Of a DNA stretch of 33,249 nt, positions 15,065-29,931 are shown piece by piece (position 1 is the stretch's first letter; every line of letters begins with the position of its first letter). The position numbers and the translations under genes are program-made. The DNA comes from an uncultured Aureispira sp. GTDB lineage: Bacteria > Bacteroidota > Bacteroidia > Chitinophagales > Saprospiraceae. Under the pieces are notes generated by a model, which made no database searches, was not told the origin of the DNA, and saw nothing but the letters and a program-made list of their open reading frames with translations. The DNA lies in NCBI GenBank assembly GCA_905480075.1, contig CAJQOX010000235.1:1-33249 (forward strand), written 5' to 3'.

Positions 15065-15700
15065 TTACCAACAGATTTCAATACCACTGACGTACTTTGA
15101 GTTTTTTGTGGACCTGAAAGGAAAAAACTGTGAAATCCGATCTGCTTCTTCTTCAATTTCCTGTTCATATTTTACTTCAAGAATAAAAACATTATGTTCA
15201 AATTGCTGCTGTTTTCTTAATCTCCTGCAAGTCATGAGCGAGGAGTAGGAAAGGTTCCAGTCCAGTGTAATCCTGAATTTTTTATCCTTGGTACCAAAAT
15301 AGGCCCTTTTGTATGAGTTCTGCAGTGCAGGTTGAAGAAAAGCAAAGGTTCCTGATAATTTATTGACTTGTTTTGAGATGGGTTTTAAATTGTCAAAAGA
15401 AAAGGTATCTACATTATATATTGTCTTTGACCCTACATTATTTCTCCTGTGTTTAATTTCAAGCTTAGGCTTTTTTATTACAAAAGGGTCCCATCCGTAC
15501 CATCTGACCCGAAATTTATCTCTGTTGGCAATACCCATCACATTCTCCTTATAGGTGGTCAGTCCGGGCGTATCAAAATAAATATTATTGATTTGTCTGT
15601 CAGGGAAAATCTTATAAAGCCCGGCAGGATGCAAAACAATAGATTGCATTATAACATCGAGGCTTAGCCCTTCAATTCTGTATTTTCTCTCGTACCTCAT
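15065..15700 (-). CDS. VTC-domain protein (polyphosphate polymerase-like)
   Basis: This 211-residue soluble protein consists of one VTC domain, the tunnel-shaped fold that in yeast Vtc4 makes polyphosphate from ATP. Residues matching the conserved charged tunnel are visible: E4 and K6 in ERKYR, the YFDTP motif (41-45), R64 and R66 in RVRWYG, E81 and K83 in LEIKHR, R132, R143 and D147 in the KRAYFG/FRITLD strands, E175 and K177 in LEVKYE, and K202 in SKYVSG. The set looks complete, so an active enzyme is plausible (inference). No membrane segment or signal peptide is present. Its ATG overlaps the stop codon of the DUF4956 gene by one base (TAATG), indicating translational coupling. VTC and DUF4956 genes are commonly paired, often with CotH genes, as here. 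Confidence 0.88.
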   Translation of the reverse strand: MRYERKYRIEGLSLDVIMQSIVLHPAGLYKIFPDRQINNIYFDTPGLTTYKENVMGIANRDKFRVRWYGWDPFVIKKPKLEIKHRRNNVGSKTIYNVDTFSFDNLKPISKQVNKLSGTFAFLQPALQNSYKRAYFGTKDKKFRITLDWNLSYSSLMTCRRLRKQQQFEHNVFILEVKYEQEIEEEADRISQFFPFRSTKNSKYVSGIEICW

Positions 15701-16389
15701 TAAACAATCAGGTCAGGTTGGTCTATTATAGAAATATGAGTATCAGCAGATAAAGCCAAGACAGCGTCTTTGGCTTCCTGAATGTTATTTATTGATACTG
15801 TTTTGCAGATAAAACTGAGATCCATTCCAGAATCAAGTGTATCCATTCTTTTAAGTTCTACAAGAGAAAAAGACTTATTCAGCAATTTATCTATACTGAC
15901 AATATCTGACAGGTCGGTAGTTATATTGACATAGAAACGATCTTCTTCCTTGAAAGAAGGACTGTTTCCCATTCTTTTGCTTAAATACAGAAAAAGAAGA
16001 ATAAAAGAAACAACAATGATTGCTATGAAGGGCTGATCGGCACCTGTGGCTAATCCTACTCCTATAGTTAGGAACAAATAAGTCAACTCCTCAGGGTCTT
16101 TGATCGCTGCACGGAAACGGACAATAGATAAGGCCCCTACAAGACCCAAAGAAAGGGCAACGGAGGGTTTTACAATGACCATAATCGACATAGTTGTTAA
16201 AGCAAGAGGAACAAAGTTAGCAGCAAATCTTGCACGGTTAGATACCGCATTGCCATAACTTACATAAAATTTGGCCACAGACATTGCTAAAAGAGTACAA
16301 ACAATCAGATTGATAACAAAACTGAGTGGATGAATGATATCGCGAAGATTGATAAAATAACCCCATAAATGATTTAATAATTCCTCCAT
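15700..16389 (-). CDS. DUF4956 integral membrane protein
   Basis: This 229-residue protein has four to five membrane segments in residues 22-140 and a soluble cytoplasmic C-terminal domain of about 85 residues (145-229). The signature is the GLVGALSIVRFRAAIKDPEE region (about 83-102) between membrane helices, typical of DUF4956. The family has no established activity; its recurrent partner is a VTC-domain protein, and both are present here with overlapping reading frames. A reasonable inference is that DUF4956 anchors or regulates the polyphosphate polymerase at the inner membrane, or moves its product. The upstream gap of 160 bases to the propeller gene could hold an internal promoter, but I saw no clear box. 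Confidence 0.88.
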   Translation of the reverse strand: MEELLNHLWGYFINLRDIIHPLSFVINLIVCTLLAMSVAKFYVSYGNAVSNRARFAANFVPLALTTMSIMVIVKPSVALSLGLVGALSIVRFRAAIKDPEELTYLFLTIGVGLATGADQPFIAIIVVSFILLFLYLSKRMGNSPSFKEEDRFYVNITTDLSDIVSIDKLLNKSFSLVELKRMDTLDSGMDLSFICKTVSINNIQEAKDAVLALSADTHISIIDQPDLIV

Positions 16390-16549
16390 AATCAGTATTA
16401 AATGCTAATAAAATTTATTTTTAATGAAAATCTAAAACAATGTAATGATTTTTTATGAATTGATATGCAAAAGCAAATGACATACTTATATTCTTAAAAT
16501 AAATGAACAAATATTTTATTATCAGGTATGTCTATTTCGGTGGCAGATA

Positions 16550-17791
16550 TCAGTGGATAATAAATTTAAGTGATTCATTATCAATTTGAATGAAGTACAA
16601 TCCAGGAGACAGGTCGCCAAGAGGAACACTTATTCTGTTTTCTGCAGCATCAGAATTAAATCTCAGAATTTGTTTCATTGAGGCTGAGTAAACAGAAATT
16701 AAATGATCTTTTGAAAAGGATTTGTTTTCAAATTCAATAGTTAAATAATCTGAAGCCGGGTTGGGGAATATTTTAAAGGTTTTCTTAGGTTCAATGATTT
16801 CATTAAGTGCATTGGGAACATTGGAAATTTTGGAAACACCTGAACTTGTAGCAACCCATATATTATCGTCAGTATCAATATGTATCTGACGGATTACCGG
16901 GCCAACAAGCCCATCAGATTCATCATAGTCAACCCATTGATTGCCATCATACATAGCTAGACCACCCACCGTGACCAGATAATCAACATAAACTCCCACC
17001 CAGATACGTCCCTGAGAATCCATGTCAATATCTTCAACAGGATTTAGTGTATCAGGTGCCGGCATGATATACATTCTGGTATGTTGTTCAATAATCTGAC
17101 CCGATGTGTCTACCACAGAAACTCCTCCTGCTGTTCCTGTCCAGATATTGTCCTGTGCATCAGCAACAGAGGCCCTTACAACATTGTGCAATAAACCCTG
17201 AGGAGTACTGATTGATGAGAAATTTGTGCCATCGTATTTTACCAGGCCACCCAAAGCAGTAGAAAACCAGACATTGTTGTCAGAATCAAAACTAACGTGA
17301 TTGACCCCTCCGAAGGGCAGACCTGCTGAAGAACTATAGGCTGTGAATAAAGAACCATCATATTTAGTAGCACCACTGAATTCACCAAACCAGATGATCC
17401 CGTTTGCATCTTCTGAGATGTCATTGACCCTGTTATTTCCCAGTCCGTCTGCAGTAGTATAGGATGTGAAGGAGGTTCCGTCGAAAACACTGACCCCAAA
17501 ATCAGTACCCACCCATATTCTCTCATCTGAAGCTATCATTATGGCATTGATATTATTGTCAACCAGACCGGGGTGAGCGCTTTTATCGTAGGATGTCCAT
17601 GAAATTCCGTCAAAATGTGAAATGCCGAACTGAGTACCAAACCAGACATTATCAGCTGTATCGGAATCAAGGCATTGCACATTATTGTCTATCAGACCAC
17701 TGCTATCGGTATAATTAGTAAAATTCTGTGCTGTTATATTTGTAAAAAATAATAATGTTGTAAAAAACAGGAATATAAATTTCATAAACAA
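16550..17791 (-). CDS. T9SS-secreted Reg_prop beta-propeller protein
   Basis: This 413-residue protein has a signal peptide (about 1-21, ending ITAQ). About seven Reg_prop-like repeats of roughly 43 residues follow (about 25-325; units such as NVWFGTQFGISHFDG, RIWVGTDFGVSVFDG and IIWFGEFSGATKYDG), and a type A T9SS C-terminal sorting domain ends the protein (about 333-413, IFPNPASDYLTIEF). It is therefore predicted to be secreted across the outer membrane and surface-attached or released. The repeats are the same class that forms the sensor of the hybrid kinase at 5546, but here they stand alone without kinase or membrane helix. Its role is probably ligand or partner binding. It lies between the CotH gene (54 bases upstream) and DUF4956. 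A second Met two codons in is an equally likely start. Confidence 0.88.
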   Translation of the reverse strand: MFMKFIFLFFTTLLFFTNITAQNFTNYTDSSGLIDNNVQCLDSDTADNVWFGTQFGISHFDGISWTSYDKSAHPGLVDNNINAIMIASDERIWVGTDFGVSVFDGTSFTSYTTADGLGNNRVNDISEDANGIIWFGEFSGATKYDGSLFTAYSSSAGLPFGGVNHVSFDSDNNVWFSTALGGLVKYDGTNFSSISTPQGLLHNVVRASVADAQDNIWTGTAGGVSVVDTSGQIIEQHTRMYIMPAPDTLNPVEDIDMDSQGRIWVGVYVDYLVTVGGLAMYDGNQWVDYDESDGLVGPVIRQIHIDTDDNIWVATSSGVSKISNVPNALNEIIEPKKTFKIFPNPASDYLTIEFENKSFSKDHLISVYSASMKQILRFNSDAAENRISVPLGDLSPGLYFIQIDNESLKFIIH

Positions 17792-17807
17792 TCTTTTTTA
17801 ATTTATT

Positions 17808-17820
17808 AATCGTAACGATT
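17808..17820. repeat. 13-base palindrome between CotH and propeller genes
   Basis: AATCGT (17808-17813) and ACGATT (17815-17820) form perfect arms around a single A. The site lies 17 bases upstream of the propeller start and 25 bases after the CotH stop. The size and symmetry would suit an operator for a dimeric regulator or a small element in the operon leader. This is inference from symmetry only. Confidence 0.4.
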
Positions 17821-17845
17821 TGAAAATGATAAGTGGATTTGTTGA

Positions 17846-20113
17846 TTAATGAAGAATTATCTTTTTAGTGAAAACAGCATCTTTTTTTGTTATTCTGATA
17901 AAGTATAAACCTTTTGAATATTCAGAAACATCGAAGGAATATGTGGAACAATTATGCAGGTTTTTGCTAAAAAGTGTTCGTCCGTTCATATCAATTAATT
18001 CAATTGTAAGTGATACCTGCGGGTCATTGATTTCAATATTAATCAATTTGTTGGCAGGATTTGGATACAAACTAAAATGATTTCCGGGTTTGATTTCTGA
18101 GATTGCCGTAAAATCATTATTCGCATTGAAGGTAGGGATTCTGTAGATGAAATTTCCTGTACCATTCGGATATCTTGCCATTGAAATATCATTGATCTGA
18201 GAAGGGTAGTGGACAGAATCAATAATTGTATTGTTGTCATAGGCAAGTATAATTTGTTCACCATTACCCGTAATTCTGAAGTTTGCATGTAATGCACCAT
18301 CCAACGTATCTTCATCGGGCCAGATAATCAGATAGTCTCCAGCCGGAATGACAACAGAAGGCAGGGCAAAGCGGGTTATATTGGTATCGGAATCGGATAA
18401 AAACAATCCTGCCAGAGAAATATCATTCTGAGAATTATTGTACAGTTCTATCCAGTCATCATAATCACCATTTTCATCTGTTACCACCGTATTGTTTGTG
18501 GCCATAAATTCGTTGATTACCAAATCTCCGGCTTGAACCTGTGACTGAAGAGTATAGTATTCATAAGCCGCCCTTTGCGGAGAAAATACACCCGCAGAAT
18601 CATTATCTGCATAAATATAATATTGTAATTCATTCCCGGAGCCTGTTAGCTGAAAACCATAAATACTATCACCGGAAATACCGTCACTCTGAGAACCGTC
18701 ATCTAACATCATAACCTTTGTAAATAGTTCGTTTGAAGCATGTCGGTAGGCCAGAATTACAGTATCAGCATCAGTTACTCTCGCCCTTATTGCAATATTT
18801 CCACCCAAAGATAAAGTGGCGGGAGCAGTATTTATATTTGATATCAGGGGATATCCCTGAAATCCGGGATAGGTATTCAGATATATTGCCCTTGCATCCA
18901 TCAAATCTGTAATGCCCGGATAATCAATCAGGTCCGAAACCGTAACATTCAGGTTGTCTGTAAAGTCCGTATAGGAATAAAACTTGTTGGTATCATTTGC
19001 AACGGAGACATCAATTATGTTTTGCATATGCTGTGCCCTGTTACTGAAATCCTGATTGTTGAAATTCTCCTGCATAATGGTTCTCATATGAGCGATATAC
19101 ATTTTTCGGTAACGGTCATTAACAAAGAGATTGCGCATAAGAGGACGAGGGTAGACCGAAACATTATTATAGTGTAACAGCGGGTCCATTTCTTTTGCTT
19201 CCTGAATGTTGAATCCACTGAAATGAATAGAAGCATCTGCCAGTCGGTAGGAAGCAAAGGACATATTAAGGTCCCACATTATTGGGTTGAACCTGCCCTT
19301 ATTATCCTCATATATATAATAATTTTGTGCATACCCAACATAGCTGTCAAAGTTGATGAGACTGTAATTGATAGCATGCATCCACAATGTACGATCCACA
19401 TTGAGGATGTTTTCAATACTATACGGATCATTGTTCAGAATGTCAATTAAATTATAAAGATCAGACCATCCGTAATCAGATTTTATATCATATAAATTAT
19501 AATAGGATGCGGAATCAGTACCCGGACTGTTACTAAGGTTGGCATTTTCACCAAAGAGATTCAGGTTTTCAGGAGCACATTTAAAAAAGCTGTTTTCCTT
19601 AGCATCAAAATGTTTGGCAAGAAAATCTTTATTTACAGATTCCACATTTGTATATATGCCCCAGAATATATCATTAATATACAAATCAGCAAAATTTGCC
19701 TTTGAAGCCGGCATATACTTTCTGCATATTTCATAGGAAAGAACCTCTCTGACAAAAGAGGGGTCTTGAATAACATTACCTAACTTCAGTTTTTCTATTC
19801 CATTATGCTTATGATTCTTTATATAATCCAGTTTGATATTAAATGGATTTTTAATTCTGTTGATACTTACAGAACTGAATCCTTTGTATCTTATACCTAC
19901 TGAATCATAAGTAATACCGTCAATCTTCACATTGGCAATCAATCTTTCTCCTAGACCAGCAACATAGAAGCTGTCGAGAATATAATCCCAGTTAGATTCA
20001 GTAAAATATATTTTAATTTCCCTTATAGAATCGACGTCATAAAAGTTGTTCTGAGCGAATAAACTATTGAAATTGACTAAAAAAAGGATGTTGATAAATA
20101 AAAAGTGCTTCAT
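17846..20113 (-). CDS. T9SS-secreted CotH-family kinase with lamin-tail domain
   Basis: This is a 755-residue protein. A signal peptide (about 1-21) precedes a CotH kinase domain (about 28-400), a linker with an Ig-like segment (about 415-530), a lamin-tail domain (LTD, about 533-645, opening GDLVINEFMATN) and a T9SS type A sorting tail (about 675-755). CotH proteins are atypical protein kinases, first shown in Bacillus spore coats. Candidate key residues are visible: RYKGFSS (75-81), K94 in NIKLD, catalytic-loop D256 in NFDSYVG, and the DFG-equivalent metal-binding D281 in MWDLNMSF. The sorting tail sends this kinase fold outside the cell, where ATP is scarce, which makes its phosphate donor an open question. 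It lies 64 bases downstream of the arylsulfotransferase-like gene and upstream of propeller-DUF4956-VTC. Confidence 0.9.
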   Translation of the reverse strand: MKHFLFINILFLVNFNSLFAQNNFYDVDSIREIKIYFTESNWDYILDSFYVAGLGERLIANVKIDGITYDSVGIRYKGFSSVSINRIKNPFNIKLDYIKNHKHNGIEKLKLGNVIQDPSFVREVLSYEICRKYMPASKANFADLYINDIFWGIYTNVESVNKDFLAKHFDAKENSFFKCAPENLNLFGENANLSNSPGTDSASYYNLYDIKSDYGWSDLYNLIDILNNDPYSIENILNVDRTLWMHAINYSLINFDSYVGYAQNYYIYEDNKGRFNPIMWDLNMSFASYRLADASIHFSGFNIQEAKEMDPLLHYNNVSVYPRPLMRNLFVNDRYRKMYIAHMRTIMQENFNNQDFSNRAQHMQNIIDVSVANDTNKFYSYTDFTDNLNVTVSDLIDYPGITDLMDARAIYLNTYPGFQGYPLISNINTAPATLSLGGNIAIRARVTDADTVILAYRHASNELFTKVMMLDDGSQSDGISGDSIYGFQLTGSGNELQYYIYADNDSAGVFSPQRAAYEYYTLQSQVQAGDLVINEFMATNNTVVTDENGDYDDWIELYNNSQNDISLAGLFLSDSDTNITRFALPSVVIPAGDYLIIWPDEDTLDGALHANFRITGNGEQIILAYDNNTIIDSVHYPSQINDISMARYPNGTGNFIYRIPTFNANNDFTAISEIKPGNHFSLYPNPANKLINIEINDPQVSLTIELIDMNGRTLFSKNLHNCSTYSFDVSEYSKGLYFIRITKKDAVFTKKIILH

Positions 20114-20177
20114 TATTGATTGCCGGATTAATAAGTAAAGGTCAACAGAAAAAGTGGACGGAATATAAAATCAGAGA

Positions 20178-21692
20178 TCATCTGATAAGAGAAACCTTTT
20201 TATTAATTACTTTATCATCCCCCTGTTGAATAGCCACATAATACATTCCGGAGGAAAGATGAGATAAGTCAAGCGAAGTGTTATTGGAAATCTGAGAGAC
20301 TAATTTACCGTAAACATCAAAAACGGAGATTTTAAGCTCTGAATCAGAAACCCCTTTAAGAGACAGAATACCGGTTGAAGGATTGGGGAAAAGGCTGATA
20401 CTATTTTCTTCGATCTGATGTATTCCTGTAGCTAAACCACAAGGGTCGGGCCCAAGTAAAGCAGCAAGTCCCGGATGATCACATTCATACCTGAAAGCTT
20501 TTGCAGGACCATCTGAGTATGCCCAGACCTGAGTGCCGTTGGAATCCACTTCGTACATATATTGGTTGGAAACATTGATAAAAGTATTGCCGTTCGACAT
20601 TCTGTCGGAAGCAGATTGACCGGAAGAATTGGCCAGGCAGTTATGTCTCCAGTCGTAAGCAGCAGGACCGTAAGCCTGACCTGCAGTCAGCGTGTAGTTG
20701 TAGCCATTGAGAGGAGGATTTATAGCATCAACAACAGAGGAATTAGAAGTTCCTCCTGAATTATTAAAAAATTGGATATAACCCGCATTAGGTCTTCCTG
20801 AAAGTATCCATCTTGGGTCATGAACTGCTGCTGTAATAGTTTGAGAACCAGGAGCTCCATAATTGGAAGGCTTGCCCCAGCGGTAGAGGAAATCTCCCCC
20901 TTTACCTGAGTTTCCTCCTGTGTGTCCTGCGGCTTCGGCAGTAGTAGTACTGTGGTCAATAATATAAATTTCGCTTGAACGTCTGGAACTAAAAACAATT
21001 TGGTCCAGTGTTGGATTGTAATCAAGGCCATTTACATGGAACCAGTCACCATTTGGACCACTTGGGCCACCACCACCACCACCTGAAATAGCATTGATGT
21101 CCATTAACTGAGGGTTGTTGGCAATTATCCCATAATTATCTTTAGAGGCATCGTGGTCCTGAATAAGATGATCCCAAATATGCCATTCCCAGACAATTTG
21201 TCCAGAAGTGCCATTTTGTTGAACCTCAATAATATGAGTAGGCCATTTATCGGAAGTAGCATTATTATAGCCAGCCTGAGTTAATTCCGCAGCCGTTTTT
21301 ACTTCCCATGCAGTAAGAAGAACATTCCCATTAGGCATCAGGCAAATATCGTGATGCGAACAATAAGAAGAGGAGGAGTAAATAAATTCCCAGACTATAC
21401 CTCCAGTAGAATTAATTTCCTGAACCTTACCGCCAATTGCAGCTCCGTTCAGAATGTTGGTGTTGTATTTTGCGCCTCGAACAATATTGCCATTATCTTT
21501 AAGTGAAACAGCATAATTAGCTGCATCAGCACAGGACCATGAATGTGCAATATTGCCGTCCTTGTCAATTAAGTAGGCAGTATTTGAGTTTTGTTTATTG
21601 TATAAAGCATAGCCGTCGAATGATTGAGCAAAAGAAGAGATGGTAAGCAGAAAAAATATTCCGATTGATATAAGTTGATTCAGATAATTCAT
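20178..21692 (-). CDS. T9SS-secreted arylsulfotransferase-like protein
   Basis: This is a 504-residue protein. A signal peptide (about 1-23, ending SFAQ) precedes an arylsulfotransferase (ASST)-type propeller domain (about 25-415) and a T9SS sorting tail (about 425-504, LFPNPSTGILSLKG). ASST enzymes move sulfate between phenolic compounds without PAPS and use an active-site histidine. Candidate residues are H113/H114 in SHHDICLMPNGN, H219 in WFHVNGLDYN and the arginines of FSSRRSSEIYIID. A glycine-rich insert (about 203-215) sits just before the FHVNGLDY motif and is encoded by a GGT repeat. The family includes members with unproven activity, so enzymatic function is inference. It appears to be the first gene of the CotH-VTC block, about 300 bases downstream of mscS. 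Confidence 0.82.
   Translation of the reverse strand: MNYLNQLISIGIFFLLTISSFAQSFDGYALYNKQNSNTAYLIDKDGNIAHSWSCADAANYAVSLKDNGNIVRGAKYNTNILNGAAIGGKVQEINSTGGIVWEFIYSSSSYCSHHDICLMPNGNVLLTAWEVKTAAELTQAGYNNATSDKWPTHIIEVQQNGTSGQIVWEWHIWDHLIQDHDASKDNYGIIANNPQLMDINAISGGGGGGPSGPNGDWFHVNGLDYNPTLDQIVFSSRRSSEIYIIDHSTTTAEAAGHTGGNSGKGGDFLYRWGKPSNYGAPGSQTITAAVHDPRWILSGRPNAGYIQFFNNSGGTSNSSVVDAINPPLNGYNYTLTAGQAYGPAAYDWRHNCLANSSGQSASDRMSNGNTFINVSNQYMYEVDSNGTQVWAYSDGPAKAFRYECDHPGLAALLGPDPCGLATGIHQIEENSISLFPNPSTGILSLKGVSDSELKISVFDVYGKLVSQISNNTSLDLSHLSSGMYYVAIQQGDDKVINKKVSLIR
21067..21083 (-). repeat. GGT trinucleotide repeat inside the arylsulfotransferase-like gene
   Basis: CCA is repeated almost six times on the plus strand, read as GGT glycine codons on the coding strand. 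It encodes part of the six-glycine run before PSGPNGDWFH. Slippage in steps of three would change glycine number without breaking the frame. Confidence 0.8.
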
Positions 21693-21998: not shown

Positions 21999-22823
21999 TT
22001 ATTTTTGAATATGAATATCCATTTGAGGGTAGGGGATAGAGATATTTTCTTTGTCGAAAGCTTTTTTTACATATTCCTGCATGAAATAAAAGGCATCCCA
22101 GTAATCAGTACCATTTGCCCAGACCCAAACAGCAAGGTCAACAGAACTGTCATTTAGTTTTTCAACAAGAATCTGATGTTCTTTTTCTTTATTATGAACA
22201 AGGAAAGGACATCCTTTTATAACAGACCAAATCACCTCTCTTGCTTTATCAATATCGTCATCATAGCCTATTCCGAAAGTTAAATCTACTCTTATCGTTC
22301 CGGCTCCTGTAATGTTTTCAACAATTTCGGAGGTAAGGGTAGAATTGGGTATTACAATCAAGCGTTGATGAATTGTAATGAGGACAGTATTAAAGATTTG
22401 AATTTCCTTAACTTTTCCAATGTAATCTCCTAAACTAATCAGATCTCCTGTTCTGAATGGCTTGAAAAACAATATCAATATTCCACTGGCAAAATTACTA
22501 AGCGAACCCTGAAGTGCCAATCCAACAGCAAAGCCTGCGGCAGCCAACATAGCAACAAAAGAGGTGGTTTCAATCCCGAGAATATCTATAGCACTTATAG
22601 AAACAATCAGTTTTAACAGCAGACCGGTAAGGGTAATGATAAAAGGCCTGAGATCTTCATCAAATTTATTGGCCCTCATCATTTTTTCTAAAAGTACCAT
22701 TGCTTTGTTGATGAGTTTGAAGCCCAAATAAAACACTATTAGCCCCAAAATAAATTTAGGAGCATATTGCATTAGCATTTGAAGAATTTTATTCAGCAGT
22801 TCATCGGTATTTATATCGAACAT
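21999..22823 (-). CDS. mscS: Small-conductance mechanosensitive channel (MscS family)
   Basis: This 274-residue protein has the MscS plan. Three transmembrane helices (about 20-41, 60-80 and 84-116) include a pore-lining TM3 rich in Ala/Gly (AAAGFAVGLALQGSLSNFASG). The beta domain follows (FFKPFRTGDLISLGDYIGKVKEI, then VIPNSTLTSEIVENIT), and then the alpha-beta C-terminal domain (about 180-274, with the VDLTFGIGYDDDIDKA segment). The channel opens on membrane tension and releases solutes during hypo-osmotic shock. The length is typical. It lies about 65 bases downstream of the wzz-like gene. A TAnnTTTG-like box at 22851-22858 (minus strand TATTTTTG) may give it its own promoter, although the matching -33 box is poor. 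Confidence 0.93.
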   Translation of the reverse strand: MFDINTDELLNKILQMLMQYAPKFILGLIVFYLGFKLINKAMVLLEKMMRANKFDEDLRPFIITLTGLLLKLIVSISAIDILGIETTSFVAMLAAAGFAVGLALQGSLSNFASGILILFFKPFRTGDLISLGDYIGKVKEIQIFNTVLITIHQRLIVIPNSTLTSEIVENITGAGTIRVDLTFGIGYDDDIDKAREVIWSVIKGCPFLVHNKEKEHQILVEKLNDSSVDLAVWVWANGTDYWDAFYFMQEYVKKAFDKENISIPYPQMDIHIQK

Positions 22824-22889: not shown

Positions 22890-24011
22890 TCAAATAATTT
22901 CCTGAGGTTCTTCTTTTGTAACAGGTTCTACTGGATCTAAAATAAAATAATCTCTGAAAATTTTCCGGCCTACTACAAGCACAAAAATAAAACCACCCCC
23001 TATAATAGCTCCTAAAACCATGTGTAGGAAAGGATTAGGTTTATGAACAGATAAAGGAAAAAGAGGAGGGTCTATAATGGTAAATGTTGTGGTTTGTTGC
23101 TGACTATTATAATCAACTTCGGCAGCGTCAGTAGTACTCAAAGCTGAAAAATAGGATTCTGTAGCTTTTCTTAGTTCAGTAGATAGTTTTTGGGTTTTGA
23201 TAATTGAATTATTTCTACCACCAGCTTCAGCAGAATTAGAGTTCACATAATTTATATAATTTGCCTCTGCATATGATAATTGATTACGTAATTCATTTGT
23301 TCTTTTCTGTGACATTTCATAAAATCGTCTTTTTTTATCAATAGCAGAATTGTTATAATATTTTTCTAATTCCTGAAACAAAACGCAAACTAATTCATAG
23401 GAAAAATTTTCAGAAGTTGATTTTGCCTTAATGTGAATCATCGATCCGACTGGGTCAAGAATCAGGTGGTTACGGATAATAGAATTATGTACATATTTTA
23501 AAAGATAATTGGCTTTTCTGTCATAAGGATTTGTTGAATCAGAGGTGAAGAAATAATTAGCATCTGATTCAGTTGGGTAATAAAAATTTCTTAGGTAGTG
23601 ATTAATAATAAAATCATTTTTTACAACAGAGTCAATTTCAAACTGAATTCTATGAAATAAAACATTAGTAAAAATTTTTCTGGTAAAAATGATTTCTTTT
23701 AAGTTATTCAGATTAGAATTAGAATTACTTTGAGTTGCAGAATTAAACGATTGACTAAATCCAAACAGAGAAGAGATATTTTGTTGTTTTTCATTATTTA
23801 ATTCATTAAATTTAAAAGAAAAATCTGCAGTATAAATTGTTGGATCGTTTAATTTTCTGTCCCGCATATATTTTCCAAAAACAAAGGCGACTATAAAAAT
23901 TAACCAAGAGTATTTTACTACTTCAATAAAATAATCTTTAAAAAGACCAAAATACTTTTTTAAATCAAATTTTTTAGAAATAGATATTGAATCATTTTGA
24001 TTTTGATCCAT
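22890..24011 (-). CDS. Wzz-like polysaccharide chain-length/co-polymerase protein
   Basis: This is a 373-residue inner-membrane protein. TM1 (about 31-49) is followed by a periplasmic region (50-325) with an alpha-helical stretch (about 215-290), then TM2 (about 328-350) preceded by the proline-rich segment IDPPLFPLSVHKPNPF that is diagnostic of Wzz/PCP proteins. No tyrosine-kinase domain follows TM2, only a short cytoplasmic tail (EPVTKEEPQEII), so it is a PCP-1/PCP-2b-like form. Such proteins set polymer length and connect synthesis to the outer-membrane exporter. It starts 8 bases after the stop of the SLBB export gene, so the two are almost certainly co-expressed and probably interact. 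The periplasmic Ser/Asn-rich region (about 78-103) is poorly conserved. Confidence 0.85.
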   Translation of the reverse strand: MDQNQNDSISISKKFDLKKYFGLFKDYFIEVVKYSWLIFIVAFVFGKYMRDRKLNDPTIYTADFSFKFNELNNEKQQNISSLFGFSQSFNSATQSNSNSNLNNLKEIIFTRKIFTNVLFHRIQFEIDSVVKNDFIINHYLRNFYYPTESDANYFFTSDSTNPYDRKANYLLKYVHNSIIRNHLILDPVGSMIHIKAKSTSENFSYELVCVLFQELEKYYNNSAIDKKRRFYEMSQKRTNELRNQLSYAEANYINYVNSNSAEAGGRNNSIIKTQKLSTELRKATESYFSALSTTDAAEVDYNSQQQTTTFTIIDPPLFPLSVHKPNPFLHMVLGAIIGGGFIFVLVVGRKIFRDYFILDPVEPVTKEEPQEII

Positions 24012-24019
24012 AGGAATTA

Positions 24020-26461
24020 TTATTTGAGGGCATTAATTAGAGCATAAACCGTTAAACCTGAAACAGCAAGGGCAAGGGTGTCAGTAATAACTTTATGCCA
24101 GTCAATAGCTTTCCTCGCCTTTTTGATTTTTTTCTCTTTGGTACCCACATAAACAAGAGCACCTTTCTCAACCTTAGGATATTTTTTAAAGAAAAGAAAG
24201 GATTTGGTTTTTTTTACCAAACCATTAGCATATCGAACATAAATCAATCGTTTTCTCCCTCCTAATTTCCAATCGATTCCTGCTCCATATTCTTTGACAT
24301 AGAATTTTGCTCTTTTTCCCTGATGGAACGGGATATTTATTTTTCTGGGATTATTTTTTTCATTTTTAAACTCTTCTAACAAAATTTCTTTTTTTTCGAT
24401 TTCCGAGGAAGCTTTCTCCAGTTTTAGTTCTAATTCCTTTTCAGCTATTTCTCCGTTTTCTTTAACAAGAGGGTGATTGATTTTGCCGGCAATAGAAACA
24501 AGATCCTTTAGTTTAGGAATATTAATAATGTCATCCTTTCTGAGGACATAATTAAATCTGGACTTTTTTCCTTCTTTTTTTAATAATTCCAAATCAAGTA
24601 AGACCAGTCCTTCACCTTTACGGATCAACTTTGCTCCTTTGAGAAACGCAATGTTCGTCCAACCACCCGCTCTTTTTAACAAATCATAAACCCTTTCATC
24701 TTCTTTAGTTAAGGTATAAATACCAGGCCATTTAATTTCACCATTAATCGTTATATTTTCAGGACTTTTATACTCTTTCGAAATCCGGACAAAAATCTGA
24801 TCATAAGGGTGTAGTTTGTAATCGTCAGCACCTTCAACCTTAAGATTATTATCAAAATCAGAAATAGTGAAATTTTTAATAATGATATAGGTTTTGTTAC
24901 CTGAGTCATCTGTTTTTAACCTGGATATTTCGATATTACTGTTAGAAGCTTCTCTTTTGATACCATTGGCCATATAAATAACATCATTCAAAGAAAGGCT
25001 ATCACTATATTCATAGGATCCTGGTTTTCTGACTGCACCATAAATCTGAACATTATATTTGTCAATAAAATCCGATTTGTATTTGACTTCGATTTCATCA
25101 AAAGGGCTGAGGGTTTTATTTTCGGGTGAATTAGGATTGTCAAGTAGTTCGTGGACATTTACAGGAATATAATCTAGGGAGAGATCTTCTCTTAGTCTTT
25201 TGATATAGATACGTTCCATAACGGCAGATCTTATTACTCCTGCCTTCATCAAAACATCATAAATTGTTGAATTGCTTAATAGCTGATAAGTCCCCGGAAG
25301 TTTTACAGCCCCGTTAACAGTAATGTAATTTGAAAAAGCCTGTTTAATTGGATTAATTTTAATCCTGTCACCATCCTTAAGGTCAAAATTTTTGTTTTGA
25401 CGTATTAATTCAGATAGATTTACATCAATTAATCTTTCTTCGTCATTCTCATAACGTATAATTTGAATATTTCTTCTGTAGGCATCCGATTTTAATCCAC
25501 CTGAATAATCAATAAGTTCAATTAAATTTTCGTTGTCAATCAATTCATAAAAAAAAGGACGTTCAATAGCCCCTTCAATTTCAACTACACGTCCGGCTAA
25601 AGGCACATAAACATAATCATTATTAAATAGGAAAAAATCATCCGCAACATTGGGGTTGTTCATGAATTTGTATACATCGAGTATGCGGGTTTTGTATTCA
25701 GAGGAAACTACTTTAATCAGTCTGACACTACCTATTTGAGAAGGACCTCCTGCAGCAACTAAAGCATTAAAAGCAGTATTTACAGCAGGGAAAGTGTAGG
25801 AACCCGGATTGAAGACTTCACCGGTAATATTAATTGTTAAGGACCTTGAGTAATTTAGTTCTATAGAGATTTGAGAATTAGCCATGTTTACATGATTAGT
25901 TAATCTCTCCTCAATCACTTTTTTTGCGTCGGAAAACTTCATTTCCCTGATATAAAGCCTGGGTATATGTACTCCTCTTCCAGGATTTGTCAGATTGATA
26001 AATCCCTCTTCGTCAATAGCTACAGAGGCAGAATAATCTGTTGCTCCCCAAATAGTAATAGCAAGTTCATCCCCTATTCCCAACAAATAACTGTCTATAG
26101 CTTTTATATCTCTTGATCGTGTAAATAAAGTGATGCTCTGATCTCTGAAAAATTGTTGCCCCCAGATTCTAGCTTCAGGAAGTTCTGCCTGTCTTATATC
26201 AAATTTTATTTTTCTTTCTTCTTCCTCGTTGTCCTCATCATTTTCAACTTCTTTATCAATTATTTCTTTACTTTCATCAACTACTTTATTTTTTTTAGTA
26301 GTTACAGAAGAATTAATGTCATTTAAATTATCTTTAATTTTGTCAATAACAACAGGGTCAATTTGTGGTGCTACAGGAATAACAGGTTCCTGTGCAATCA
26401 AATTGCTTAGCCATAAGGTATTTAAGCAAATAAAAAGTAAAATAATTAATTTCAACTTCAT
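24020..26461 (-). CDS. Wza-like polysaccharide export protein with multiple SLBB domains
   Basis: This is an 813-residue exported protein. A cleavable signal peptide (about 1-23, ending LIAQ) has no lipobox, so it is not a typical Wza lipoprotein. An acidic linker (about 55-90) is followed by the polysaccharide-export (PES) domain (about 125-205, GIGDELAITIWG). Five to six SLBB repeats come next (units opening ITGEVFNPGSY, VEIEGAIERP, ITVNGAVKLPGTY, VQIYGAVRKPGSY, ITINGEIKWPGIY and VSIAGKINHP; about 210-680). A charged coiled-coil insert (about 680-715) and a C-terminal hydrophobic helix (about 790-810) end the protein. This is the large multi-SLBB exporter common in Bacteroidota, about twice the length of E. 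coli Wza. It should form the outer-membrane or periplasmic conduit for the polymer whose precursors are made by the upstream sugar-nucleotide genes. wzz-like follows directly. Confidence 0.9.
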   Translation of the reverse strand: MKLKLIILLFICLNTLWLSNLIAQEPVIPVAPQIDPVVIDKIKDNLNDINSSVTTKKNKVVDESKEIIDKEVENDEDNEEEERKIKFDIRQAELPEARIWGQQFFRDQSITLFTRSRDIKAIDSYLLGIGDELAITIWGATDYSASVAIDEEGFINLTNPGRGVHIPRLYIREMKFSDAKKVIEERLTNHVNMANSQISIELNYSRSLTINITGEVFNPGSYTFPAVNTAFNALVAAGGPSQIGSVRLIKVVSSEYKTRILDVYKFMNNPNVADDFFLFNNDYVYVPLAGRVVEIEGAIERPFFYELIDNENLIELIDYSGGLKSDAYRRNIQIIRYENDEERLIDVNLSELIRQNKNFDLKDGDRIKINPIKQAFSNYITVNGAVKLPGTYQLLSNSTIYDVLMKAGVIRSAVMERIYIKRLREDLSLDYIPVNVHELLDNPNSPENKTLSPFDEIEVKYKSDFIDKYNVQIYGAVRKPGSYEYSDSLSLNDVIYMANGIKREASNSNIEISRLKTDDSGNKTYIIIKNFTISDFDNNLKVEGADDYKLHPYDQIFVRISKEYKSPENITINGEIKWPGIYTLTKEDERVYDLLKRAGGWTNIAFLKGAKLIRKGEGLVLLDLELLKKEGKKSRFNYVLRKDDIINIPKLKDLVSIAGKINHPLVKENGEIAEKELELKLEKASSEIEKKEILLEEFKNEKNNPRKINIPFHQGKRAKFYVKEYGAGIDWKLGGRKRLIYVRYANGLVKKTKSFLFFKKYPKVEKGALVYVGTKEKKIKKARKAIDWHKVITDTLALAVSGLTVYALINALK

Positions 26462-26500
26462 AATTAAAGTCAGTATTAAATCAGGATTTCAGATTTAAAT

Positions 26501-27553
26501 TCAATCCTTGTATTGATCAGCATAATATTTTTGATAATTCCCTGAGGTTACATTATCTAACCAGGAGTCGTTAGCAAGGTACCATTGAACAGATTTTCTG
26601 AGGCCTTCCTGAAATGTGACAGAAGGTTTCCATCCCAAATCATCTGCTATTTTTGAGGCATCAATTGCATATCTTCTATCATGCCCCTGCCTGTCTTTTA
26701 CGAAAGTAATCAGTTTTCTTGAACTTCCCTGCGCTCTACCAAGTTCTTCATCCATAATATCGCAAAGCAATTCAACCAAATCAATATTTTTCCATTCATT
26801 ATGCCCTCCTATGTTGTATGTCTCTCCTGAAACTCCCTCTGAATAAATAGTATCAATTGCTGTTGCATGATCATTTACCCAAAGCCAGTCTCTAGTATAC
26901 TTTCCATCACCATATACCGGGAGTGCTTAATTGTGTTTAATGTTATTTATACATAAGGGAATTAGTTTTTCAGGGAACTGATGAGAACCATAATTGTTTG
27001 AGCAATTAGATATGACAACCGGTAAATCATAAGTATGATAATAGGCCCTTACCAGATGATCGGAACTGGCTTTTGATGCAGAATATGGAGAACGAGGATC
27101 ATAAGGCGTTTCTTCAGTGAAAAGACCGGTTTCTCCCAGTGTACCATAAACTTCGTCTGTAGAAATATGATAAAAACGTTTTCCCTCCATATTATCAGAC
27201 CATGAATGACGAGCAGCATTCAATAAATTGACAGTTCCCAGAATATTAGTCTCAACAAAGGCAAGCGGGTTAGTTATTGAACGGTCAACATGTGACTCAG
27301 CAGCTAAATGAATAACTCCGTCAAAATTATATTGCTTAAAAAGCTTATCGATGAATTCCTTATCTACAATATCTCCTTTAATAAAGGTGTAGTTTGATTT
27401 TGAATCAATGTCTGTCAGGTTCTCTAAATTACCGGCATAGGTAAGATTATCCAGATTTACTATATGGATTTCGGGATATTTGTTTACGAATAATCTAACA
27501 ACATGAGATCCTATAAAACCTGCTCCTCCAGTTAATAATATTGTCTGTTTCAT
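26501..27553 (-). pseudogene. rfbB: dTDP-glucose 4,6-dehydratase, interrupted by an in-frame stop
   Basis: The whole frame would encode 350 residues, the normal RfbB/RmlB length. Codons 1-208 carry the Rossmann motif GGAGFIG (9-15), AAESHVD (85-90), STDEVYG with the TDE active-site triplet (132-134), and YSASK (Y157, K161). Codon 209 is TAA (26927-26929). Translation in the same frame then resumes without any shift: ALPVYGDGKYTRDWLWVNDH, the YNIGGHNEW segment and the C-terminal RRYAIDASKIADDLGW block. Most RfbB proteins have Lys or Gly-Lys just before ALP, so one A-to-T change (AAA to TAA) explains the stop. The enzyme makes dTDP-4-keto-6-deoxyglucose for deoxysugars; the truncated product would lack the substrate-binding C-terminal domain. 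The gene lies between the UDP-xylose synthase and the SLBB exporter. It is either a true nonsense allele or a base error in this assembly. Confidence 0.88.
26927..26929 (-). other. In-frame ochre stop within rfbB (codon 209)
   Basis: TAA lies between CAC-AAT (His-Asn) and GCA-CTC-CCG (Ala-Leu-Pro) of the dehydratase. The codons on both sides are in the same phase and match the family on each side. There is no homopolymer at the site to suggest an indel. Confidence 0.9.
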
Positions 27554-27601
27554 ATATAAAAATAAACTGCTTTTTAATAATTAAATGGATTGTAGAAAAA
27601 A

Positions 27602-28549
27602 TCATTGTTTAACTGTATCGGGAACCACTTTTTTGAAATACTCATAAGTTAATTTAACCCCTTCGGCCCGACCAACTTTAGGCTCCCAATTCAGAATTTT
27701 TTTAGCTAATTCAATATTCGGCCTTCTTCTTTTTGGGTCGTTCTCAGGCAAAGGATGAAAGGATAACCTTCCTTTGCCAACCATTTTAAGTACCTCTTCA
27801 GCAAATTCCTTTATAGTGATTTCATCAGGATTTCCTATGTTTACCGGCATATGATAATCACTAAGTAATAAACGGTAAATACCTTCTACCAAATCATCAA
27901 CATAACAAAAGGAACGTGTCTGCGAACCATCCCCGAAGATTGTTAACTCTTTGTCCTGTATTGCCTGAGAGAAAAAAGCCGGTAATACTCTGCCGTCATC
28001 TACTCTCATCCGGGGACCATAAGTATTAAATATCCTTATTATACGAGTCTCGAGTCCATGATAGGTATGGTACGCCATTGTGATTGCTTCCTGAAAACGT
28101 TTGGCTTCATCGTATACTCCCCGTGGACCAATAGGGTTGACATTGCCCCAATAGTCTTCTGTTTGTGGATGAACCAAAGGGTCACCGTAAACTTCAGAGG
28201 TGGAAGCGACTAAAATTCTCGCATTTTTAGCCTTTGCAAGTCCCAGCAAATTATGTGTCCCTAAAGATCCAACCTTTAAAGTCTGTATAGGTATTCTAAG
28301 GTAATCAATAGGACTTGCAGGAGAAGCAAAATGAAGGATATAATCAAGATTTCCGGGGACATGAACGAATTTACTTACATCATGATGATAGAACTCAAAT
28401 TGCTTCAGGTTAAAAAGATGTTCAATATTAGCCATATTACCGGTAATCAGGTTGTCCATACCAATAACTTGAAAACCTTCAGCAATAAATCTGTCACAAA
28501 GATGAGAACCTAAAAAACCAGCAGCACCGGTAATTAATATCCTTTTCAT
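27602..28549 (-). CDS. uxs: UDP-glucuronate decarboxylase (UDP-xylose synthase)
   Basis: This 315-residue extended SDR protein has Rossmann glycines GAAGFLG (8-14), HFASPASP (73-80, the UXS-type active-site loop), the STSEVYGDP segment (S118, E119), catalytic Y146 and K150 in GVYDEAKR, and the [10 protein letters not shown] motif with R180. These separate UXS from dehydratases and epimerases. The reaction is NAD+-dependent oxidation and decarboxylation of UDP-glucuronate to UDP-xylose in the cytosol. The substrate is made by Ugd, encoded immediately upstream with a 35-base gap, so the two genes form a complete UDP-glucose to UDP-xylose route. The product should feed the polymer exported by the SLBB/Wzz pair downstream. 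Confidence 0.92.
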
Positions 28550-28584
28550 ATATTTTGTTATAGCTTAATTAATATAAATTTTTG

Positions 28585-29931
28585 TTACTTTGTAATGCCA
28601 TTCAATTTAGATGAATCTACATTAACTACAGACCTCCCGATACTCAAATAAGCCAATCCGGCATCTCTTACAATGTCAAGGTCATATAAATTCCGTCCAT
28701 CAAAAATAACATTGTCTTTTAATTGATTTTTTAGCTCACCAAAATCAGGTGTTCTGAATTCGTTCCATTCAGTCATGATAGCAAGACAATCAGCATTTTT
28801 TATTGCTTCATACTTGCTGCTTGTAAAGCATACTTTGTCACCATAAATTTCTTTAACATTATCCATGGCTTCAGGATCAAATGCCTGAACCGTTGCTCCG
28901 GCTTCCAATAACTGATTAATAGCTTCTAAAGCAGGAGCTTCTCTGATGTCATCTGTGTTAGGTTTGAAGGCAAGACCCCACATAGCAATTACTTTTCCGG
29001 CAAGATCTCCGTCATAATAGGAAAGCATTTTGTCTCCCATTTTTAGTTTTTGTTTCTTATTGACATCCATGACAGATTTAAGAATTTTAAAATCATAGCC
29101 AAAGTCACCAGCAGTTTTGTTTAAAGCTTTTACGTCTTTTGGAAAGCAACTTCCTCCATAACCGATTCCTGCAAACAAAAAGCGTTTACCAATTCTGCCA
29201 TCTGCACCCATTCCTTTCCTGACCTGATCCACATTAGCCCCTACCAATTCACAAAGATTAGCAATCTCATTCATAAATGAAATCCGGGTTGCAAGATAAG
29301 AATTAGCAGCATACTTTGTTACTTCAGCTGACCGTTCATCCATGAAAAATATGGGGTTTCCCTGTAAAACAAAAGGACGGTATAGGTTCTCCATGACCTT
29401 TTTTGCTCTTTCAGAACTTGTTCCGATAACAACCCTGTCAGGTTTCATGAAATCAGGTACGGCAACACCTTCCCTTAAAAATTCAGGATTTGACACAACA
29501 TCGAATAAATCTGTATCAAGGTTTTCAGATAAATAGCTGTGCACTTTCTCAGCAGTACCTACCGGTACTGTACTTTTATCAACAATTACGGTGTATTTCT
29601 TTATTATTGTTCCCAGTTGCTTTGCAACTCCTAAAACATAAGATAAATCAGCAGCACCATCTTCGCCGGGAGGGGTGGGCAAGGCTAAAAAAACAATTTC
29701 AGAAGCATTAACTGCTGATTCTAGATCAGTAGTAAATGATAACCTTCCGTTCTTTGTGTTCCTGTCAAATAAAACCTGTAGGCCGGGTTCGAAAATCGGG
29801 ACAATACCAGATTGCATTTTTTCAACCTTTGATTTGTCGATGTCAACACAAATTACATTGTTCCCGGTCTCTGCAAAACAAGTACCTGTAACCAATCCTA
29901 CATACCCTGTTCCTATTATTGAAATATTCAT
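28585..29931 (-). CDS. ugd: UDP-glucose 6-dehydrogenase
   Basis: This is a 448-residue protein. The N-terminal NAD-binding domain has the GTGYVGLVTG motif (7-16) and the acidic VDIDKSK end of beta-2. The central helix carries the EFLREG and K-Y-A-A-N-S-Y-L-A-T-R segments. The catalytic cysteine C262 lies in GYGGSCFPKD, and the C-terminal domain includes LAFKPNTDDIREAPAL. It oxidises UDP-glucose twice to UDP-glucuronate. The length and all motifs are standard. It is the first gene of the minus-strand polysaccharide block (ugd, uxs, rfbB, SLBB exporter, wzz-like) and faces a long AT-rich gap that should hold the promoter. No glycosyltransferase gene is present in the visible part of the locus. 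Confidence 0.95.
   Translation of the reverse strand: MNISIIGTGYVGLVTGTCFAETGNNVICVDIDKSKVEKMQSGIVPIFEPGLQVLFDRNTKNGRLSFTTDLESAVNASEIVFLALPTPPGEDGAADLSYVLGVAKQLGTIIKKYTVIVDKSTVPVGTAEKVHSYLSENLDTDLFDVVSNPEFLREGVAVPDFMKPDRVVIGTSSERAKKVMENLYRPFVLQGNPIFFMDERSAEVTKYAANSYLATRISFMNEIANLCELVGANVDQVRKGMGADGRIGKRFLFAGIGYGGSCFPKDVKALNKTAGDFGYDFKILKSVMDVNKKQKLKMGDKMLSYYDGDLAGKVIAMWGLAFKPNTDDIREAPALEAINQLLEAGATVQAFDPEAMDNVKEIYGDKVCFTSSKYEAIKNADCLAIMTEWNEFRTPDFGELKNQLKDNVIFDGRNLYDLDIVRDAGLAYLSIGRSVVNVDSSKLNGITK

Follow-up and report, generated by a model that had tools for sequence, protein, structure and literature searches.

In Gram-positive bacteria, Pel loci carry a trio of genes coding for a DUF4956 protein, a polyphosphate polymerase and a CotH protein (PMC7112168, PMC12345266). 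Deletion of the DUF4956-like gene of Streptococcus intermedius was reported to raise Pel and deletion of the CotH gene to lower it, both mutants aggregating less; a polymerase mutant kept its aggregation and Pel, and the analyses described in that paper did not find the trio outside Pel (PMC12345266). The NELoc-2 locus of C. perfringens is described as having VTC and CotH genes alongside a glycosyltransferase gene (PMC2879425). In yeast VTC, synthesis was reported to be coupled to translocation via a channel lined by basic residues, and substitutions of R264, R266 and E426 inactivate Vtc4 (PMC9911596). The catalytic aspartate pair of B. subtilis CotH was given as D228 and D251, and the phosphate source of spore-coat CotH was called an unanswered question in the same account (PMC7821199).

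The locus described here lies in a stretch of 33,249 nucleotides from an uncultured Aureispira sp. (Saprospiraceae), which is called the window below. Five minus-strand ORFs follow one another between positions 15065 and 21692 (Table 1), as the initial annotation had described them: their positions, Pfam domains and three type IX secretion system (T9SS) sorting tails were all found. The VTC and DUF4956 ORFs overlap by one base, the DUF4956 stop codon lying on the VTC start codon. Counted from the ORF ends, the gaps are 160 bp between DUF4956 and Reg_prop, 54 bp between Reg_prop and CotH and 64 bp between CotH and the arylsulfotransferase (ASST)-like gene. A scan for promoters and terminators returned 73 promoter-like and 10 terminator-like sites, which is about the level of shuffled sequence. 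A second genome of the genus (locus L120, the same as L159) has the same five genes in identical order and with identical flanks. The arrangement exceeds chance, being kept in this second genome, with CotH found near VTC about 27-fold over its density. CotH is matched 12 times in the window's genome, which also carries a second VTC-DUF4956-CotH locus, located on contig C331 and absent from the initial annotation. A DUF4956-VTC-CotH locus is likewise present in the cultured Aureispira sp. CCB-QB1.

Table 1. Features of the five-gene locus and its upstream flank in the window.
Feature	Coordinates	Strand	Evidence and remarks
VTC-domain protein, 211 aa	15065..15700	-	PF09359 E 1.2e-26 (Pfam)
DUF4956 protein, 229 aa	15700..16389	-	PF16316 E 8.1e-15 (Pfam)
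Reg_prop beta-propeller protein with T9SS sorting tail, 413 aa	16550..17791	-	PF07494 E 1.3e-25; PF18962
CotH-family kinase (predicted) with Lamin Tail Domain and T9SS sorting tail, 755 aa	17846..20113	-	PF08757 E 5.3e-41; PF00932 E 3.3e-18; PF18962
Arylsulfotransferase (ASST)-like beta-propeller with T9SS sorting tail, 504 aa	20178..21692	-	PF05935 E 1.6e-23; PF18962
MscS-type mechanosensitive channel	21999..22823	-	PF00924; upstream of the five genes
Polysaccharide export and nucleotide-sugar genes	22890..29931	-	Pfam/NCBIfam; directly upstream, context only

The MscS-type gene also flanks the locus in L120 and in a near relative, L160, and is a conserved upstream flank, probably outside the module discussed below. 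The polysaccharide-export cluster, which is on the same strand as the five genes and was not mentioned in the initial annotation, codes for a chain-length-like protein, an SLBB/Poly_export protein, two dehydratases/epimerases and a UDP-glucose dehydrogenase. Its chain-length and SLBB genes are retained in both L120 and L160.

The VTC-domain protein is predicted from its sequence to be a cytoplasmic polyphosphate polymerase with a triphosphate tunnel fold. A profile search links it to structures of yeast Vtc4 (E 9e-23), and its residues R64, R66 and E175, all located in invariant columns, align with R264, R266 and E426 of Vtc4. Some related tunnel enzymes hydrolyse or cyclise rather than polymerise. 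VTC is probably not the sole polyphosphate enzyme of the trio genomes, since 23 of 24 of them also have PPK. A 778-aa VTC fusion in L081 was discarded as a product of a spurious upstream frame on a GC-rich contig, its VTC domain being confined to residues 518-743.

The DUF4956 gene is located at most 500 bp from VTC and on the same strand in 57/61 loci. Among 394 genomes, DUF4956 is present in 58/58 with VTC and in 31/336 without it, and CotH in 56/58 and 80/336, respectively, although Fisher tests on these co-occurrences treat related genomes as independent. Since VTC was never found without DUF4956 in a genome of this draw, DUF4956, to which Pfam gives no function, gains its first strong partner. 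CotH, in turn, does not require VTC, because 80 genomes have the former without the latter. The DUF4956 protein consists of membrane helices and a C-terminal cytoplasmic PII/ACT-like domain (model pLDDT 84), which resembles the SbtB PII-like proteins (Foldseek E 1e-3, TM-score about 0.6 of the target); there is also a sub-threshold Pfam match to MgtC (E 7e-4). Just two residues, R91 and R93, are invariant in 20 DUF4956 sequences. Among the 50 Foldseek matches listed, none supports the membrane part as a channel and none aligns it with a VTC chain. We propose DUF4956 to be a membrane partner or conduit of VTC. A split of DUF4956 proteins into types A and B was dropped, as iterated profiles merged the two, with 60 hits in common.

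The three larger products of the locus appear to be exported. A C-terminal Por_Secre_tail domain (PF18962) was found in the ASST-like (E 2.7e-14), CotH (E 7.5e-15) and Reg_prop (E 1.2e-12) proteins, in agreement with TIGR04183; each of the three has a signal-peptide-like N-terminus as judged by eye, and a SprA-type T9SS translocon gene is present in the genome. Thus, the three marks of a T9SS cargo (sorting domain, translocon gene and signal peptide, the last one by eye only) are found together. Among CotH proteins encoded at VTC loci, 28/29 N-termini look exported by the same visual inspection and the remaining one is cut by the stretch end, so the earlier placement of CotH outside the cytoplasm can be extended to VTC loci in general.

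In its modelled structure, the window CotH resembles that of B. cereus (5JDA/5JD9; Foldseek E 4e-20, TM 0.76). The protein has K88, E158, D256, N264 and D281, with D256 and D281 aligned to D228 and D251 of the B. subtilis protein; it thus retains the canonical kinase residues, and kinase activity is predicted on these grounds. The CotH of the second locus belongs to a membrane-anchored beta-helix type, with His at the position of the D228-type Asp. Alignment of three members of this type has shown the fold and the metal-site Asp to be kept, along with the same His substitution. In a survey scoring at most two candidates per genome, beta-helix CotH was found in 33/298 genomes of the order, 32 of these 33 having VTC as well. 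Half of its places (22/44) are within 10 kb of VTC, and DUF4956 adjoins it in 12/20 such loci fetched. A CotH tree was built by a quick method from 97 rows, 22 of them hand-chosen non-adjacent ones, so that adjacency in it is partly due to selection. Its smallest starred clade has 14 rows: seven VTC-adjacent ones and the window, four non-adjacent ones and two paralogues that the window's genome encodes on other contigs. An assignment of the window CotH to a VTC-only lineage is not supported, as the tree places members located away from VTC in the same subfamily.

The even draw across the phylum contained 67 VTC places in 58 genomes, of which 60 stretches were read together with the window; genomes G016, G119, G305, G333 and G336 and the VTC fragment G022:C160 were omitted from the locus set, and some stretches end at contig ends. 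CotH is located near VTC in 26/61 loci, with 29 genes found, 29/29 on the VTC strand, against 1.08 expected from Pfam densities, the loci having been read with our own, perhaps slightly more sensitive, profile. Density and strand rule out a chance neighbourhood of CotH and VTC, and the recurrence of VTC, DUF4956 and CotH asserted in the initial annotation, the absence of which would have counted against its reading, is borne out repeatedly. At the other 35/61 loci, the fetched stretch contains no CotH gene. Named genomes were scanned as well, with the VTC clade of the window as seed, and CotH was present at 53/80 loci, with 68/70 CotH genes on the VTC strand; 40 loci, hand-picked to cover that clade, form a biased sample. 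A HlyD-type adaptor gene is present at 38/61 VTC loci, a DUF2490 barrel gene at 15/61 and either of them at 53/61, which hints at an exit route from the cell; both genes are missing from the window locus. The order DUF4956-HlyD-OEP was found in 10/20 additional DUF4956 loci, which all belong to a single family.

The ASST-like protein has a propeller fold according to Pfam but matches AssT only weakly (E 0.73). Residues H113, H114, H219, N221 and H291 are invariant in seven ASST-like proteins, all encoded at VTC-CotH loci. ASST-like genes recur at such loci in five families, and 7/35 ASST genes of 54 genomes are located there against 0.19 expected. In L086, which comes from another family, a T9SS-tailed CotH and an ASST accompany VTC-DUF4956. 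The recurrence in five families supports the proposed role of the ASST-like protein as a partner. The secreted Reg_prop propeller, previously counted as another component, now looks weaker: its intact homologue (67% identity in L120) is confined to the same genus, with a weak remnant in L160, and other VTC loci gave only short propeller-repeat matches. A role of Reg_prop as a conserved partner is not supported.

Overall, the five genes can tentatively be considered as one surface-phosphate module, in which VTC supplies polyphosphate, DUF4956 serves as conduit or gate and CotH phosphorylates the surface; we would put this at somewhat less than an even chance. It draws on the gene content, order, conservation, cross-genome co-occurrence, export signals and intact catalytic residues seen at these loci, from which we infer polyphosphate as the product, DUF4956 as the conduit and any use of polyphosphate by CotH. 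The adaptor and barrel genes at most other loci and the synthesis-coupled translocation of yeast VTC (PMC9911596) fit this reading. The VTC enzyme would build polyphosphate from ATP inside the cell. DUF4956, with its invariant Arg-x-Arg and its PII/ACT-like sensor domain, would take the chain and move it across the inner membrane, gate the enzyme, or both, and in most other Bacteroidota loci the HlyD-type adaptor or the outer-membrane barrel could extend the path. CotH, sent to the surface via the type IX system, would act on or with the exported phosphate and so phosphorylate surface material; the ASST-like propeller would be its co-exported partner, and the Reg_prop propeller presumably a lineage-specific addition. 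VTC polyphosphate delivered to the periplasm or surface via DUF4956 (and, at loci that have one, a HlyD-type adaptor) may even be the phosphoryl donor for exported CotH, making extracytoplasmic phosphorylation independent of ATP. We regard this as unlikely; if true, the trio outside Pel would represent a general, phylum-spanning way to phosphorylate the cell surface without ATP.

The trio might instead serve a surface polysaccharide, with CotH phosphorylating exopolysaccharide machinery or matrix proteins at the expense of ATP or another donor, DUF4956 as a sensor-regulator, VTC as an accessory and the window cluster belonging with the upstream export genes. The changes in Pel and aggregation caused by the S. 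intermedius deletions (PMC12345266), the recurrence of the trio in Gram-positive Pel loci (PMC7112168) and the glycosyltransferase neighbour in NELoc-2 (PMC2879425) all fit such a role, as do the same-strand export and nucleotide-sugar genes upstream, two of which are kept in L120 and L160. However, PelG above the cut-off was found in 0/24 trio genomes (there were two sub-threshold matches), with no match in the window's genome, which rules out, for the genomes considered here, that the trio is solely a Pel accessory, and HlyD adaptors beside DUF4956 suit export more than pure regulation. Corynebacterium glutamicum, included as a named control genome, gave matches to VTC, DUF4956 and CotH and none to PelG. 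We find the polysaccharide role somewhat unlikely. It is also conceivable, if quite improbable, that polyphosphate itself is the surface polymer, which CotH or its partners attach, cap or organise, protein phosphotransfer being secondary. The repeated presence of adaptor, barrel and OEP genes points to export of some material from the cell, and the His of beta-helix CotH suggests that some VTC-linked CotH proteins may bind rather than phosphorylate, but the canonical kinase residues are intact in the window CotH.

Very doubtful, in our opinion, is a chance placement, in this genus, of ASST, CotH and Reg_prop beside DUF4956-VTC as an independent T9SS surface cassette, the true CotH partner being the anchored beta-helix CotH of the second locus. 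Such independence would agree with L160, where DUF4956-VTC is kept at 80% identity while the surface genes are lost and CotH remnants only are left, with the 160 bp separating Reg_prop from DUF4956, with the dozen CotH matches in the genome and with contigs where ASST and CotH occur together away from VTC (about 2.5 kb apart in G023, about 5 kb in G361). It is at odds with the gene order kept in G659, with T9SS-tailed CotH and ASST accompanying VTC-DUF4956 in other families (e.g., L086) and with the excess of ASST genes at VTC-CotH loci. As to the surface-phosphate module, the loss in L160 and the missing catalytic Asp in the second-locus CotH speak against tight coupling. Also counting against the module are the 35 VTC loci lacking CotH, the genomes with CotH and no VTC, the absence of adaptor and barrel at the window locus, the members of the window's CotH subfamily located away from VTC, the aggregation and Pel kept by the S. 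intermedius polymerase mutant (PMC12345266) and the lack of a Foldseek match, among those listed, in favour of a DUF4956 channel.

CotH kinases function outside the cytoplasm. With a conserved operon that unites genes for an exported CotH, for polyphosphate synthesis and for a membrane protein whose neighbours are of export type, the question of the CotH phosphate source becomes testable. The reading of the Pel trio changes from a Pel accessory to a wider module in which Pel loci take part, and the recurrence of the grouping suggests that cells may modify their own surface with exported phosphate chains.

The initial annotation knew of no described system with this composition. This does not hold for the trio as such, known from Gram-positive Pel loci together with DUF4956 and CotH deletion phenotypes; for the form that carries T9SS tails and ASST, our literature search found no description. 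The locus resembles SIR_1592-1594 of Streptococcus intermedius in bringing together a DUF4956/MgtC-ACT membrane protein, a polyphosphate polymerase and a secreted CotH; unlike the Gram-positive Pel trio, it is located outside a Pel locus, in a two-membrane bacterium, and has a T9SS-tailed CotH with ASST and Reg_prop partners. It shares the association of VTC with CotH with C. perfringens NELoc-2, reported to combine two VTC-domain proteins and CotH in one locus, but NELoc-2 is Gram-positive and its VTC-adjacent genes are annotated as tubulin/FtsZ-like (PMC2879425, PMC11677781). The window CotH shares its kinase fold and the two catalytic Asp residues with the Bacillus spore-coat kinase (5JD9/5JDA; PMC7821199) and differs from it in surface export, the Lamin Tail Domain, the T9SS tail and the linkage to VTC-DUF4956. 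In the eukaryotic VTC complex, the polymerase likewise has a tunnel fold and these catalytic residues of VTC and is paired with a membrane protein (PMC9911596), whereas here VTC is a small separate protein without SPX or membrane domain, and its partner is DUF4956.

The five minus-strand genes of the window, described in the initial annotation as coding for an arylsulfotransferase-like protein (ASST), a CotH-family kinase, a Reg_prop propeller, DUF4956 and a VTC domain, were found by ORF and Pfam analysis to have both the positions and the domains ascribed to them, and the T9SS sorting domains claimed for the first three are C-terminal in all of them. The host genome belongs to Saprospiraceae and includes an SprA gene; the nearest named records to the window VTC come from a Saprospiraceae MAG (82% identity) and an Aureispira MAG (80%). 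Matches to two VTC, two DUF4956 and twelve CotH genes are present in this genome, one of the twelve falling under the family cut-off. Its second locus, on contig C331, includes DUF4956, VTC and a 988-aa CotH that has a membrane anchor at its N-terminus and a right-handed beta-helix. The window's dehydratase-like ORF (see table) reaches only to about position 206 of its 332-position profile, and its in-frame stop codon is either a real nonsense mutation or an assembly error.

Coordinates of the features discussed (L, fetched locus stretch)
Stretch	Position	Strand	Feature
Window	15065-21692	-	ASST-like, CotH, Reg_prop, DUF4956 and VTC genes
Window	26520-27553	-	dTDP-glucose/GDP-mannose dehydratase-like gene in polysaccharide cluster; in-frame TAA near 26927
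L049	6865-9828		beta-helix CotH
L125	13130-14017		second tunnel-fold protein (CYTH, E 4e-6) between DUF4956 and beta-helix CotH; VTC also at the locus

Across 394 genomes drawn evenly from the phylum, VTC was found in 58, DUF4956 in 89 and CotH in 136. DUF4956 is present in all 58 VTC genomes versus 31 of the 336 others, and CotH in 56 versus 80 (Fisher p of 5e-47 and 1e-27, respectively, with related genomes treated as independent); CotH occurs in 23 of the 31 genomes that have DUF4956 and lack VTC. Among the 61 VTC loci read (60 fetched stretches and the window), 57 have DUF4956 on the VTC strand at a distance of 500 bp or less, and 60 have it anywhere in the stretch; the exception is L106, whose contig stops after VTC. 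The claimed recurrence of the three families together was borne out by CotH at 26 of these loci, 29 genes versus 1.08 expected, all on the VTC strand and 25 within 5 kb of VTC; the fetched stretches of the other 35 loci contain no CotH. A T9SS tail was detected on 16 of the 29 proteins, while the N-termini of the other 13, judged by eye, are lipoprotein-like (five), membrane-anchored (three), signal-peptide-like (four) or cut by the stretch end (one). We consider it highly probable that VTC, DUF4956 and exported CotH constitute a functional module.

A scan of named genomes, for which the window's VTC clade served as seed, returned 80 loci, with CotH at 53 and DUF4956 at 50. All but two of their 70 CotH genes are on the VTC strand, and one of these two comes from L178, as part of a further VTC-CotH-DUF4956 set that is placed oppositely. 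Verrucomicrobia, Gemmatimonadetes, Anaerolineales, Pelagibacteraceae and a Woesearchaeote are among the loci by record title, some being MAGs with a title-based taxon only. All three families were matched in Corynebacterium glutamicum and Methanosarcina acetivorans among 14 control genomes. Some Saprospiraceae loci (L126, L131, L133, L134, L136, L138, L143 and, in part, L130 and L137) have a RibBA-like gene and two glycosyltransferases upstream of VTC and no DUF4956 beside it; DUF4956-CotH is placed elsewhere in several such genomes. L129 and L132 code for proteins similar in size and place to the L125 CYTH protein, the CYTH match itself coming from L125.

At the window locus the grouping takes a lineage-specific form that carries a T9SS surface cassette (ASST, CotH, Reg_prop). 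G659, a genome of the window's genus, has all five genes in the same order between the same flanking genes (71, 73, 67, 90 and 82% identity for ASST, CotH, Reg_prop, DUF4956 and VTC). A near relative, L160, keeps the flanks and DUF4956-VTC (VTC 80%, MscS 89% identity), and the only matches in the 1.19 kb between its MscS and DUF4956 genes are fragments resembling residues 371-439 (E 8e-14) and 600-663 (E 1e-8) of the window CotH and a questionable trace of Reg_prop (E 0.004). Given these remnants, the cassette was probably once present and then decayed. It can disappear while VTC stays, although L174, a fragment of the same MAG, has DUF4956-VTC-CotH at a second locus. Of the 35 ASST genes in 54 genomes, 7 are at VTC-CotH loci, spread over five families and each on the VTC strand, with 0.19 expected. 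Since in G023 and G361 it occurs in the contig neighbourhood of CotH away from VTC, ASST also pairs with CotH independently of VTC.

The predicted model of the window CotH matches the B. cereus CotH fold, and both catalytic Asp residues, D228 and D251 in B. subtilis according to PMC7821199, are present in the alignment. Its subfamily is mixed: the smallest starred clade (14 rows) unites the window, seven VTC-adjacent and four non-adjacent proteins and two same-genome paralogues from other contigs. In the tree the beta-helix CotH proteins make up one side of a branch with full support, but all 31 rows were drawn from VTC loci, so the branch alone is no proof of VTC exclusivity. A separate search, covering 298 genomes from the order, detected them in 33, of which 32 have VTC, versus 74 of the 265 others. 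Only 22 of the 44 places are within 10 kb of VTC. DUF4956 is beside CotH in 12 of 20 fetched beta-helix stretches, nearly all with VTC elsewhere in the genome, which indicates that the three families travel together even when split. Three aligned members (L049, L097, L108) have His at the D228 position and keep the D251 equivalent; the membrane-anchored beta-helix class may therefore be something other than a canonical kinase. At L119, the second G659 locus, one VTC is surrounded by three beta-helix CotH genes.

Signs of export were sought with profiles built for this analysis, and Pfam confirmed four of the five adaptor matches and both barrel matches that were checked with it. An HlyD-type adaptor was found at 38 of the 61 VTC loci, a DUF2490 barrel at 15 and either at 53; both are absent at eight, including the window, L049, L097 and L108, which together make up the window's own VTC clade. 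The DUF4956 model combines membrane helices with a PII/ACT-like domain, and R91 and R93 are the only invariant residues across 20 sequences. These could be likened to the basic residues lining the yeast VTC channel, reported in PMC9911596 as required for translocation. Among 20 further DUF4956 stretches, mostly from genomes without VTC, three have CotH and ten, all of one family, the order DUF4956-HlyD-OEP. In this family (L279-L288), which lacks VTC, DUF4956 lies amid DUF6580, an HlyD adaptor, an outer membrane efflux protein and a short-chain dehydrogenase (Pfam for L283 only, order in all ten), and it may serve other exported products there. PPK is present alongside VTC in 23 of the 24 genomes with the VTC-DUF4956-CotH trio in one locus, so VTC there is likely a special-purpose polymerase. 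Exit of polyphosphate from the cell via the module is perhaps an evenly balanced proposition; that it then feeds CotH seems unlikely.

Paper searches in open-licence PubMed Central turned up nothing on the trio in a T9SS or Bacteroidota form. PMC7112168 counts cotH, a poly-phosphate polymerase, DUF4956 and DUF4832 among the accessory genes of streptococcal and clostridial Pel clusters. In S. intermedius, as described in PMC12345266, deletion of the DUF4956-like gene raised Pel and deletion of CotH lowered it, both reducing aggregation, while the polymerase mutant kept Pel and still aggregated; its authors state that they did not detect the three genes together anywhere but at Pel. None of our 24 trio genomes has PelG above the cut-off (two sub-threshold matches), so the Pel-only statement fails beyond the set its authors examined.
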